Source: Methanolacinia paynteri (GTDB lineage: Archaea > Halobacteriota > Methanomicrobia > Methanomicrobiales > Methanomicrobiaceae). From it: 41,073 nt of DNA. A program made the position numbers and the translations under genes. This document shows positions 4,036 to 34,571 of this stretch, piece by piece. How positions within the stretch are numbered: the stretch's first letter is position 1; every line of letters starts with the position of its first letter. The stretch spans positions 1 to 41,073 of the forward strand of contig NZ_AXDV01000012.1 of assembly GCF_000784355.1 (NCBI RefSeq), read 5' to 3'. Below the pieces are notes generated by a model that worked only from the letters and a program-made list of their open reading frames with translations, ran no database searches and had not been told where the DNA came from.

Positions 4036-4107
4036 GCCAAGGTGGCGGAGTGGCCACGCGGCTGACTGCAGATCAGCTACACCCCAGTTCAAGTCTGGGC
4101 CTTGGCT
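4036..4107 (+). tRNA. tRNA-Cys (GCA)
   Basis: A 72-base cloverleaf. The acceptor stem is GCCAAGG (4036-4042) with CCTTGGC (4100-4106); the anticodon stem is GCTGA/TCAGC with loop CTGCAGA, giving anticodon GCA at 4068-4070; the T arm is CCCAG-TTCAAGT-CTGGG. The discriminator at 4107 is U, the known identity base for cysteine tRNA. CCA is not encoded. It lies 94 bases before 5S copy 2. In related archaea tRNA-Cys often sits at the end of the rRNA operon. Confidence 0.95.
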
Positions 4108-4189: not shown

Positions 4190-4201
4190 TGAGCAATAAA
4201 T

Positions 4202-4318
4202 TTGCGGCCATAGCGGTGGTGTCACACCCGGACCCGTTTCGAACCCGGAAGTTAAGACCACCCACGTAGGATGCTGTACTGAGATACGCGAGTTCTCGGG
4301 AACCATCTCTCGCTGCAA
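4202..4318 (+). rRNA. 5S rRNA, copy 2
   Basis: A second 117-nt 5S gene with the same terminal helix UUGCGGC (4202-4208) and GCUGCAA (4312-4318). All core 5S sequences are intact, so it should be functional. The differences from copy 1 are few and mostly in the 3' half. It follows tRNA-Cys, not a 23S gene. Confidence 0.95.
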
Positions 4319-4662
4319 TTCCCGGTGACGGGAGCCTGTTTTGAAAAAATTTGATTGAATAGCGTGAAGTATTGTCTATTATGACTTTTTTCTTTGGGCG
4401 TGAGCTTTTTTTATTTAATATCAGAGAAGGGATGGGGAGAAGAGCAAAGTTCCGCGCTGACATGTCATGAAAGCGCATGCCATTGTGCCAGATCATGCTC
4501 GCGGAGTGAACGCGCAAGAGTTGTCATTAAGTGTTATTGGATGTCCGGAGACCCTGACGATCTGCTGAATTGAGAAATTATATTTAGGAAATTCGTATTT
4601 CGTCCGTTTTTGTGCAGAAAGCTCCAAATATTTTAATATCTGGTGATTGATATCATGAGTAA
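4319..4662. other. Gene-free region after 5S copy 2, with flank shared with copy 1
   Basis: About 4319-4438 is similar to the flank of copy 1: CCCGGTGA, TTTGATTGAATA, ATGACTTTTTTCT, GCGTGAGCTTT and AGAGAAGGGA occur in the same order in both. The T-runs near 4385-4391 and 4405-4412 are probable terminators. From 4440 to about 4600 I see no gene. A TATA-like stretch AAATATTTTAATAT near 4624-4637 lies about 30 bases before the DUF432 start and is its likely promoter. Confidence 0.7.
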
Positions 4663-32149: not shown

Positions 32150-33624
32150 CCTCTCAGCTCCTCTGCTGCTTTTATCATCCTCTTCTTCGCCTCTTCGTTC
32201 TGTATTTTTATATCTTCTATCCATTCGGAATCTTCATTCAGTGCGGCGGTCTTCCCGGCGATTGCCGCTTTTACAGCTCCGGGAGCAGGTCCGCCGATCG
32301 CCGACCTCTCGTTAACCGAATATGCAACATCGAGAGCCCTCTTCACGTCGTCTTCGGTCATGCCGAGCTTCTTCAGCGAGAATCCTGCCATTTCGTTCGC
32401 CGCCTCTTCGAGAGTTTCGAGATCGATCTTCTTCATCCTGACGGCCCTGCCAGTTATCCCGTGCGCCGTCCTGAACGGGAGCCCAAACTCCCTGACCATG
32501 ACATCGGCCAGTTCTGTGGCGGTCGAGAAGCCCTTTCCTGCCTCTTCGTTCATCCGTTCGGTATTGAATGATGCCGTATCGATCATTCCTGCGATTATCG
32601 CGAGCGACGCCTTTACGTCCTCCATTGAGCGCCACAGGTGCGGCCAGAGATCCTGCAGATCCCGGTTGTAGCTCATCGGCAGCCCCTTTACTATCGCAAT
32701 CGATGCCGTAAGTGCGCCGAGAACAGATCCGGCTTTTCCCCTCATGATCTCTGCACAGTCCGGATTCTTCTTCTGCGGCATAATCGAACTTGTCGAGCAG
32801 TATTCATCCGCGAGCTCGACAAAGTTCACGAAGGACGAGCTCCACAATATAAACTCCTCGCACATCCTGCTCAGGGTCGTCATCAGTATGGAACAGGCCG
32901 AGATGACCTCTATGAATACGTCTCTTCCGGCAACGCAGTCCATCGAATTTTCGAGAACCCCGGAGAACCCGAGAAGCTCTGCGGTATATTCTCTGTCGAT
33001 CGGGTAGCCTGTCGATGCGAACGCAGCCGTCCCGAGCGGGCAGAGATCGAGCCGGAGGTATGCATCCCCGAACCTCTCGAAGTCTCTTTCGAACGCCTGC
33101 TCGTAGTTCATCATATAATGTGCAAGAGTCGTAGGTTGTGCGTGCTGGAGGTGAGTGAAACCGGGCATGTAGGATTCGGTATTCTGCCCTGCCTTTTCGA
33201 TCAGGACTTCCCTGACTTCATTTATCCCCGACATGATTTCGGCAAGGTCACGTTTCAGCCTGACACGTGCGCAGGTCGCGACCTCGTCGTTTCTGGACCT
33301 TCCCATGTGCAACCTGCCGCCCGTGTCGATCCCTGTCTTCTCTATGACAAGGGCCTCGATTCCTGCATGGACATCTTCGAACTTCTCGTCGAAGACCGGG
33401 TCGGGCAGTCCGTTTTCGTGAAGGTCCAGGAGGACGGCCATGATCCTCCCTGCCGCGTCTCTGCTTATGATCTCCTGTTTTTCGAGCATCAGCAGGTGGG
33501 CGATATCGACAAGGATATCGGCATCCCCGATGAACCGGTCGGCCTCACGGGACGAGAGATAACTCCAGACCTCAGGCGGCCGGCCGTCGCCGAGCCTTCC
33601 TTCCCTCAAAGGGTCTTTGCTCAT
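32146..33624 (-). CDS. argH: Argininosuccinate lyase
   Basis: A 492-residue argininosuccinate lyase, splitting argininosuccinate into arginine and fumarate. The family signature SSIMPQKKNPD is present, as are MGRSRNDEVAT and TGFTHLQHAQPTT (with the catalytic His region) nearer the N terminus. The length is normal for ArgH. The start is at MSKDPLREG because GGAG lies 9 bases before it; an open frame continues upstream to 33834, but the extra 70 residues are not ArgH-like and run into the structured-RNA region. It is the first gene of an argH-gatD-gatE operon. Confidence 0.95.
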   Translation of the reverse strand: MSKDPLREGRLGDGRPPEVWSYLSSREADRFIGDADILVDIAHLLMLEKQEIISRDAAGRIMAVLLDLHENGLPDPVFDEKFEDVHAGIEALVIEKTGIDTGGRLHMGRSRNDEVATCARVRLKRDLAEIMSGINEVREVLIEKAGQNTESYMPGFTHLQHAQPTTLAHYMMNYEQAFERDFERFGDAYLRLDLCPLGTAAFASTGYPIDREYTAELLGFSGVLENSMDCVAGRDVFIEVISACSILMTTLSRMCEEFILWSSSFVNFVELADEYCSTSSIMPQKKNPDCAEIMRGKAGSVLGALTASIAIVKGLPMSYNRDLQDLWPHLWRSMEDVKASLAIIAGMIDTASFNTERMNEEAGKGFSTATELADVMVREFGLPFRTAHGITGRAVRMKKIDLETLEEAANEMAGFSLKKLGMTEDDVKRALDVAYSVNERSAIGGPAPGAVKAAIAGKTAALNEDSEWIEDIKIQNEEAKKRMIKAAEELRG

Positions 33625-33663
33625 GATATTCTCCACTCCTGTCCTAATTGTATGACCCGGAGC

Positions 33664-33671
33664 ATATTTAA
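33664..33671 (-). promoter_or_regulatory. TATA box for the argH-gatDE operon
   Basis: TTAAATAT on the minus strand about 43 bases before the argH ATG. Transcription would start near 33642, leaving a short leader that contains the ribosome site. The operon is thus transcribed separately from the structured region upstream. Confidence 0.5.
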
Positions 33672-33805
33672 GGCGCCGATAAACCGGAGAGAAAGGAAGC
33701 CGGCAGGGATTTACCCCGGCGGTTTTTTTGTGCGGAAAAATAATTACTCGTAATGTTTCGCATTCTCTCGTCCTCACATGCGTCCGGGATTGCATGAAGC
33801 ACTTA

Positions 33806-34086
33806 TGGCAACCCCGGCACCGGCGGCAGGCCACCGGACGGCCCCTGCCCAGGGGCCTTGCCTTAAGATAGTCCTCTCACGGCACGCTCAGGGAACCGGC
33901 AAGGGTCCCCTGAGCTGTTGAATATAGTTTGCTATGGTATGTTCCGTTCCGTACACGCCATGAGTTTACCGCGTCCCACCGCTCAGAGGATACTCGTCTA
34001 TCCCCTGAGCGGTTATCATCACAGAGAGGCCCCGAGGTCGGGGCCGATCCGCGGGCCGCTGTGCGGCTCGCGGCGAGGTGTTGCCA
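33806..34086 (-). ncRNA. Candidate structured non-coding RNA, ~281 nt, unknown family
   Basis: The two ends pair: UGGCAACACC (minus strand, 34086-34077) with GGGGUUGCCA (33815-33806), nine of ten positions. Enclosed hairpins are 33840-33857 (GGCCCCTG/CAGGGGCC), 33886-33915 (GCTCAGGG/CCCTGAGC), 33979-34012 (CCGCTCAG/CTGAGCGG extended by GGATA/TATCC), 34028-34045 (GGCCCCGA/TCGGGGCC) and 34049-34073 (CCGCG, CCGC / GCGG, CGCGG). Size and end pairing are like SRP or RNase P RNA, but the diagnostic SRP GGAAG-AGC asymmetric loop and the RNase P AGGAAAGUCC and its partner are not found on either strand. The minus strand is favoured by a TATA-like box just ahead and T residues downstream. Expression is unproven. 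Confidence 0.5.
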
Positions 34087-34142
34087 AAAGTAGATGGATG
34101 AAATTTATTCTGCTTCCGGTGAAGCAGCAATCAAAAAAAATT

Positions 34143-34571
34143 TCAGAAATTCACCCTGTAAACGGGCTTCTCCATGAAGACGAATCCCCCTCCCGAGGCG
34201 GTGACGTCAACGTGAACATCGATCGCGTCGATCTTCATTTTTTTTGCCGCTGCATAAGCCTTTTTGACGAATTCATATCCTTCCGGCGGGTTTTCTGGAT
34301 CGAGATCCTGCCTGAAGCACATAGGGGAGTACGGGTACGAATGTACCCCGAGATCGTGCACCTGGTTGTATATCGTGAAAATCCCTACCGCAGGATCGGG
34401 AACCTTGATCCTGATCTTCACGTCGACAGGCTCGCGGAATCCGTCCGCCGGGACGATCTCAAACTTCATATCGAGGCTCTCCCCTTTAGAGGCGCAGTAA
34501 CCGTTTTCGGGAGAGTAGCATATTGAAAAAGGAGCCGTTATATTGTGTCCGCCGTGTCCGGGTCTGTTCAT
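34143..34571 (-). CDS. Small protein of unknown function
   Basis: A 142-residue soluble protein that I do not recognise. It has no signal peptide, membrane helix or known motif. The middle is predicted beta-rich (FEIVPADGFREPVDVKIRIKV), the C-terminal half contains a helix (EGYEFVKKAYAAAKKMKIDA) and ends with strands (DAIDVHVDVTASGGGFVFM). An N-terminal HGGHN and three cysteines are present but form no clear metal site. The TATA-like GGTTTATTT about 30 bases before the ATG and the T8 tract after the stop frame a complete transcription unit, which supports a real gene. Confidence 0.65.
   Translation of the reverse strand: MNRPGHGGHNITAPFSICYSPENGYCASKGESLDMKFEIVPADGFREPVDVKIRIKVPDPAVGIFTIYNQVHDLGVHSYPYSPMCFRQDLDPENPPEGYEFVKKAYAAAKKMKIDAIDVHVDVTASGGGFVFMEKPVYRVNF

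Follow-up and report, generated by a model that had tools for sequence, protein, structure and literature searches.

ERIC, NEMIS/Correia and BOX repeats of bacteria are intergenic, MITE-like and hairpin-forming, and can be co-transcribed with neighboring genes; REP/BIME sequences are short palindromic units without target duplications of the DDE type. Archaeal MITEs, in those sections of the published survey on which we draw, are short, have no recognizable open reading frame and carry inverted-repeat ends, sometimes with direct repeats; they are often present in more than 10 copies, and the partner insertion sequence, scarcely recognizable as such, often shares only its ends with them (Kamoun et al., 2013; PMC3852290). 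A second kind of repeat, the G-quadruplex repeats of the Methanomicrobiaceae, is intergenic as excerpted from its description, with about half of the copies between tail-to-tail genes and with a GC-rich hairpin as the alternative structure (PMC8044849).

The feature analyzed here lies within the window, that is, the whole 41,073-nt stretch of Methanolacinia paynteri DNA. It occupies the gap between argH and the next open reading frame, which measures 518 bases and, as the first-pass annotation had it, contains no protein gene; that reading frame (34143-34571, minus strand), upstream of argH, encodes 142 residues and has no NCBIfam match. We consider it highly probable that what lies here is a MITE-like element in truncated form, whose complete form, spread in trans and hairpin role at the 3' ends of transcripts would be as proposed below. 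The annotation had described a closed stretch of about 281 nt with paired ends and five strong hairpins. The ends, TGGCAACCCC (33806-33815) and GGTGTTGCCA (34077-34086), do pair at nine of ten positions over a span of 281 nt, and strong hairpins are indeed enclosed, although there are six of them, not five, within the terminal helix. The segment 33735-34107 folds with a minimum free energy of -172.8 kcal/mol on the minus strand (z -7.1) and of -163.5 kcal/mol on the plus strand (z -5.3), values equalled by none of 100 dinucleotide shuffles per strand. The features of the site are the following.

33624: ATG of argH (TIGR00838 match, 512.1 bits).
33736-33806, plus strand: 5' spacer remnant of the full element, the outer terminal inverted repeat being absent; many copies have an upstream spacer similar to AAAAATAATTAC..AATG.TTCGCATT.TCTCGTCCTCACATGCGT.CGG, and no GGCTCTTCG end was detected for the window copy.
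33807-34086, plus strand: conserved hairpin core (280 bp); nhmmer match to model positions 1-289 at 33807-34092, aligned with 57 other cores.
33806-33815, plus strand: terminal helix, 5' arm; nine of ten pairs with 34077-34086 (helix 1, 97.3% of cells paired).
33820-33837, plus strand: hairpin 2 (module A); two-sided changes in four of eight pairs (58 copies).
33840-33857, plus strand: hairpin 3 (module A), GGCCCC..GGGGCC; two-sided changes in two of seven pairs.
33886-33915, plus strand: hairpin 4 (module A); two-sided changes in five of 11 pairs, one pair being C-G in 26 copies and U-A in 23.
33922-33977, plus strand: linker joining modules A and B, evolving fast (alignment columns 126-202); at 11 shared sites its divergence is 21.1%, close to the 18.0% of fourfold sites.
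33979-34012, plus strand: hairpin 5 (module B); two-sided changes in four of 15 pairs, one pair being A-U in 21 copies, G-C in 19 and G-U in 15.
34028-34045, plus strand: hairpin 6 (module B), GGCCCC..GGGGCC; 98.3% of cells paired, two-sided changes in no pair.
34049-34073, plus strand: hairpin 7 (module B); two-sided changes in five of nine pairs.
34077-34086, plus strand: terminal helix, 3' arm; nine of ten pairs with 33806-33815 (helix 1, 97.3% of cells paired).
34086-34093, plus strand: 3' tail remnant of eight bases (AAAAGTAG), the remainder, including the 3' terminal inverted repeat, being lost or unrecognizable; the consensus tail AAAAGTAGTGAAACTTGCTTTTATACCCACRCAGATTARCGAAGAGCC was read by eye from other copies.

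The paired ends of the window stretch are internal to a longer element. Outer inverted repeats and a target duplication were sought at the window copy, and neither an end nor a duplication was recognized; beyond about 34093 the copy departs from the family consensus. The site itself is shared with the sister genome, where the copy (L129, 1773-2064, corresponding to 33807-34092 of the window) lies inverted between the same two genes. Elsewhere in the window are two 5S rRNA genes (222-343 and 4200-4321), the second of which directly follows a tRNA-Cys gene (4036-4107).

When 60 genomes, the window's own among them, were searched at the DNA level and mostly ten candidates were scored per genome, strong matches to the element came only from its own genome (G000) and from one sister species (G001). 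The third genome of the genus (G002) matched the argH-side flank of the query (E 2.7e-13) and one short piece (E 3.0e-6), and the best match elsewhere among the candidates scored was in G009 (E 4.7e-5). Two conserved patterns, with at most three mismatches, hit G000 52 and 44 times and G001 49 and 44 times; in G002 they gave no hits, and neither did reversed-pattern controls. Together with two further places the pattern hits merge into 105 clusters, 55 in G000 and 50 in G001. Scanning the window together with 99 fetched loci (100 sequences from the two genomes) with a profile returned 225 raw hits, which reduce, after removal of overlapping and opposite-strand hits, to 134 non-overlapping copies or pieces (68 in G000, 66 in G001): 67 near full length, 38 5'-partial and 29 other pieces. 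The core is a dispersed repeat in the two genomes, and a single-copy new RNA gene finds no support. Three more shortened copies (L130-L132), located via their ends, fall outside the 134; at L130 and L131, in G000, the middle of the core is deleted and the terminal helix kept, and a longer copy occupies the same sites in the sister genome (L098, L095). Cores also occur in tandem arrays (L047, L073, L116, L117). Arrays of full and partial cores stand at the same place in both species with differing copy numbers (L047/L073, L117/L072 and L116/L087), L087 being a single core where L116 has an array. The repeat also has a few distant relatives in another genus. Among 28 genomes of the family searched for such relatives, G009 holds three stretches (L144, L145 and L146) that resemble module B, L144 with an altered hairpin beside AGAGGCCCCGAGGNCGGGGCC, and G014 one fragment, whose match lies mostly beyond the core-like part of the query; G002 gave short, weak matches, L147 consisting only of pieces like hairpin 4 and its surroundings. 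Exact core patterns had no match in genome_contigs or in viral_contigs, two sets that may omit the window's own genome and very near ones.

The family is a non-autonomous, MITE-like transposon: its copies are dispersed, have inverted-repeat ends and target duplications, and are absent from some orthologous sites. Its hairpins covary, and their stems change slowly. In complete copies the core sits within a longer element bounded by terminal inverted repeats, GGCTCTTCG...CGAAGAGCC; the repeats are imperfect, about 25 bp long, and were read by eye as GGCTCTTCGCTGTTTCATGTGGGTA at the 5' end and TACCCACRCAGATTARCGAAGAGCC at the 3' end. A stricter search for the two end sequences returned 30 hits in G000, 14 in G001 and none in G002; the reversed pattern had no hits. 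When up to five mismatches were allowed per end, in a count made without a shuffled control, 108 clusters divided into 21 with both ends, 34 with the left only, 12 with the right only and 41 with neither. Eighteen of the 21 two-ended copies measure 331-490 bp, the others 539, 763 and 815 bp. The target duplication is 8 or 9 bp. The 8-bp flanks match at seven or eight positions in nine of the 21 two-ended copies (seven sites), four of them exactly, against 2.0% matching at seven of eight or better in controls that pair the left flank of one copy with the right flank of another; four other copies (three distinct sites) show an exact 9-bp match (control 0.000), some of these in T or A runs. The 21 copies represent 15 distinct sites, and 12 of them form six pairs at shared sites, so that not all are independent. 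Nine joined flank pairs of G000 were compared with G001, and five of them (L032, L037, L058, L074 and L077) correspond there to one contiguous stretch lacking the element, at 72-92% identity; on closer alignment of these five, the single target copy is clear at L032, and L077 aligned on one side only. The remaining four sites are uninformative, because one flank, pieces or nothing was recovered in G001.

At 38 locus pairs a copy stands at the same place in both species, in the same orientation in 31 and in the opposite orientation in seven, the window's site and six others. Since sites are shared, much of the spread probably predates the split of the two species. No copy cluster lies within a gene called by codon usage, calls in which start codons are uncertain, nor did these calls place a gene inside a copy cluster. 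The complete element would consist of GGCTCTTCG-type ends and, with no visible gene, a 280-bp core of terminal helix and six hairpins arranged in modules A and B.

We infer that the element was spread in trans by a DDE transposase, for which an IS5-type enzyme is a guess. No ISL3 transposase was found in G000-G002, no IS1595 transposase in these genomes or G009, and no IS240-type transposase in G000 or G001; DDE_Tnp_1 (IS5) copies are present in G001, with ends that differ from those of the repeat, and none was found in G000. The end pattern, with at most three mismatches in 25, occurs beside known cores except at three places, which are the shortened copies. Neither the end scan nor the search for these four families (ISL3, IS1595, IS240 and IS5) disclosed an autonomous element with GGCTCTTCG-type ends; partner elements can be lost from a genome. 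The IS5-family element of the sister genome (transposase of 283 aa matching NF033579, L175) is like the repeat in that one L175 end starts with GGCTCT and that an 8-bp target duplication apparently flanks one of its copies (L178), but the rest of its ends differs (GGCTCTGTAGAAAACC). At L113/L178 of G001, an IS5-type element is inserted into the 3' tail of a repeat copy, with an apparent 8-bp duplication, CAAGTTTC.

Covariation is present in the alignment of 58 copies (58 of 64 near-full cores, 255-305 nt; a structure of terminal helix and six hairpins, 66 pairs). Two-sided changes occur in 21 of the 66 pairs, against 7.7 (SD 1.6) in shuffles that ignore the relatedness of the copies, none of 500 reaching 21, and 4-8 in slid structures. 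They are stronger evidence than the percentage of paired cells (95.8% in the 58 cores versus 94.3% in shuffles), which is favored by construction because the structure was drawn from the consensus. The hairpins, moreover, appear constrained after insertion, because at 11 shared same-orientation sites (11 of the 13 pairs listed, a member of the other two being absent from the alignment) the stems differ at 101 of 1411 positions (7.2%), and the linker at 123 of 582 (21.1%), while fourfold coding sites of genes beside the 13 shared same-orientation sites differ at 900 of 5000 (18.0%). The module A loops (59 of 585, 10.1%) and the module B loops (60 of 424, 14.2%) lie between stems and linker. Bootstrapping the loci puts the stem/linker ratio at 0.22-0.56, and at ten of the 11 loci the stems change more slowly than the linker; L090/L125 runs the opposite way, with 11 of 131 stem positions and none of 48 linker positions changed. 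Across all pairs among the 58 copies, stems differ at 9.5% and the linker at 31.9%, and three opposite-orientation pairs, counted apart and possibly separate insertions, differ about as much as the others (8.4% and 23.9%), a point against constraint.

The same MITE-like element might have no host role, its hairpins being maintained through template-directed correction within hairpins, through exchange among copies or through earlier selection for mobility, a reading that competes with the proposed role only and that we regard as a serious possibility, though on balance not the probable one. Against this reading, arm-to-arm copying should make double changes frequent, and 16 shared pairs (of 20 listed, opposite orientation included) yield 16 Watson-Crick double changes beside 77 single changes in 919 stem-pair comparisons, three of the 60 stem pairs not being Watson-Crick in the consensus; if the two sides changed independently, about 3.9 doubles, whatever their kind, would be expected. 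Total stem change is also well below neutral, and the loops of module A are slow as well. What speaks against constraint is that the divergence of the whole core at shared sites is no lower than that of the locally alignable flank (identity 0.899 versus 0.921). Cores at shared sites are 0.893 identical, compared with 0.852 for the average and 0.904 for the best paralogue (21 pairs), and, since they are no closer than the best paralogue, there is room for exchange between copies, which may blur the picture of constraint. The inverted copies at shared sites also fit an element without a host role.

A structure that acts in one strand should tolerate G.U there and not A.C. In raw cells, the six hairpins hold 54 G.U and 66 A.C, about balanced, as is expected of DNA-level processes, which suits an element without a host role. 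Counted as events on a tree, the total over all helices is 75 G.U versus 53 A.C, and it divides by module: 9 versus 28 in module A (hairpins 2-4; p 0.003), 45 versus 21 in module B (hairpins 5-7; p 0.004) and 21 versus 4 in the terminal helix (p 0.0009), two-sided binomial values to be read knowing that cells are not independent and that the module split was chosen after viewing the helices. Hairpin 2 alone has no preference (6 G.U versus 7 A.C), and hairpin 6 opposes its own module (1 versus 5). Helices 3-4 have a wobble polarity opposite to that of helices 1, 5 and 7 in full and partial copies alike; in the partial set, which is separate from the full copies (37 of the 38 5'-partial and 18 of the 29 other partial copies used), module A has 18 G.U versus 44 A.C cells in the 5'-partial copies (37 copies) and module B 30 versus 5 in the 3'-partial copies (18 copies). 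By these counts, module A looks like a minus-strand and module B like a plus-strand structure. Mutation bias is an unlikely source of the module A signal, because C-to-T and G-to-A rates are equal in the linker and the A loops lean opposite to the A stems; it is a possible source for module B, because the B loops share the bias of the B stems, a point that again suits an element without a host role.

Copies strongly favor gaps between convergent genes. The 97 gaps that hold a copy comprise 44 convergent, 40 tandem and 13 divergent ones, whereas among 98 copy-free gaps of at least 50 bp, drawn from the same loci and not genome-wide, 5 are convergent, 63 tandem and 30 divergent. We propose that the element would insert into intergenic gaps, especially those between convergent genes, and that the outer ends would afterwards decay while the hairpins are kept. 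Gene context hints that the most likely role of the kept hairpins would be at the 3' ends of neighboring transcripts, where they might act as a barrier, effective from both sides, to read-through or degradation in the gaps where genes converge. The further reading that the family has been co-opted in place as a two-faced 3'-end element, module A acting in minus-strand and module B in plus-strand transcripts, so that a copy serves both convergent neighbors and its hairpins are preserved by selection wherever, at many sites, copies are fixed, we think unlikely. Because the two modules bear opposite strand signatures, a role at the ends of convergent transcripts can be tested directly.

The first-pass annotation had concluded that the feature is a new, lineage-specific structured RNA. 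Its premise that no known family is involved holds: Rfam models at gathering scores gave no match to the element over the whole window or in ten other loci, and a permissive search (E up to 10) of 33600-34200 gave 11 matches, all far below gathering scores and at chance level. Archaeal RNase P RNA had no RF00373 match in 33600-34200, the true RNase P RNA of the same genome being located elsewhere (L090, 2711-3047; 117.7 bits), and archaeal SRP RNA had no Rfam match at gathering scores or at E up to 10. The feature is likewise structured and lineage-specific, as claimed; it is one copy of a dispersed, transposon-like repeat, and not a single RNA gene. The arms GCTCAG/CTGAGC are common to the hairpins at 33886-33915 and 33979-34012 in the window, as described, and the suggested swapping of partners is not a conserved property, because many relatives have differing arms in hairpins 4 and 5 of the alignment. 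That a discrete, lineage-specific non-coding RNA gene is transcribed on the minus strand from near 34099-34107, the other copies being its paralogues, is in our estimate very improbable. Minus-strand folding is strong, the hairpins covary, their stems are constrained at shared sites and module A takes its wobble on the minus strand, all of which would suit such a gene. In addition, the 3' tail of full copies (L058, L052 and L044, for example) contains CTTTTATACCCAC, a TATA-like box on the other strand about 18-25 nt from the core end, and a CTTTTAT/TTTTATA box lies at most 45 nt outside the 3' core end in 15 of the 86 copies that reach this end, against 2 of 86 reversed tails. The window copy, however, lacks the CTTTTAT/TTTTATA box; the box put forward by the annotation at 34099-34107 lies outside the conserved sequence and finds no comparative support; more than 100 copies with transposon ends and target duplications speak against a gene; and the module B hairpins and the terminal helix take plus-strand, not minus-strand, wobble. 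One transcript from one strand fails to explain the conservation, because the polarity of G.U versus A.C is opposite between the two halves. The remaining alternative, extragenic palindromes of the REP/BIME type that a Y1 (RAYT-type) transposase has spread, would account for palindromic, intergenic units, many of them between convergent genes. It is the least credible: inverted repeats at the ends, together with target duplications of 8 or 9 bp, point to a transposase of the DDE type, and at hundreds of bp the unit greatly exceeds a REP in length. Even an archaeal sequence that folds strongly and covaries can be a transposon copy, and what was probably a false RNA-gene call is corrected here.

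Returning to the MITE-like element and its described counterparts, literature on archaeal MITEs, on repeats of Methanolacinia and Methanoplanus petrolearius and on intergenic or palindromic repeats of Methanomicrobiales, covered in part, did not describe this family. The bacterial ERIC, NEMIS/Correia and BOX repeats belong to hosts unrelated to Methanolacinia, and their likeness to the repeat lies in their general properties. The G-quadruplex repeats, in the excerpted account (PMC8044849), share with it the archaeal family and an intergenic location; a pattern for their motif is absent from the window and from every core and present only in the flanks of 5 of the 99 fetched loci. Archaeal MITEs, so far as the sections of the survey used here describe them (Kamoun et al., 2013; PMC3852290), are like the Methanolacinia repeat in being short units with inverted-repeat ends and many copies; the repeat differs in that no partner was found for it and in that its interior is a long, covarying array of hairpins, apparently under constraint once inserted. 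In this archaeal family the constraint on inserted hairpins can be measured between two species, the internal linker and the fourfold coding sites serving as yardsticks. As far as these searches go, the family is new and belongs to a known kind of element, with an unusual and well-kept internal structure.
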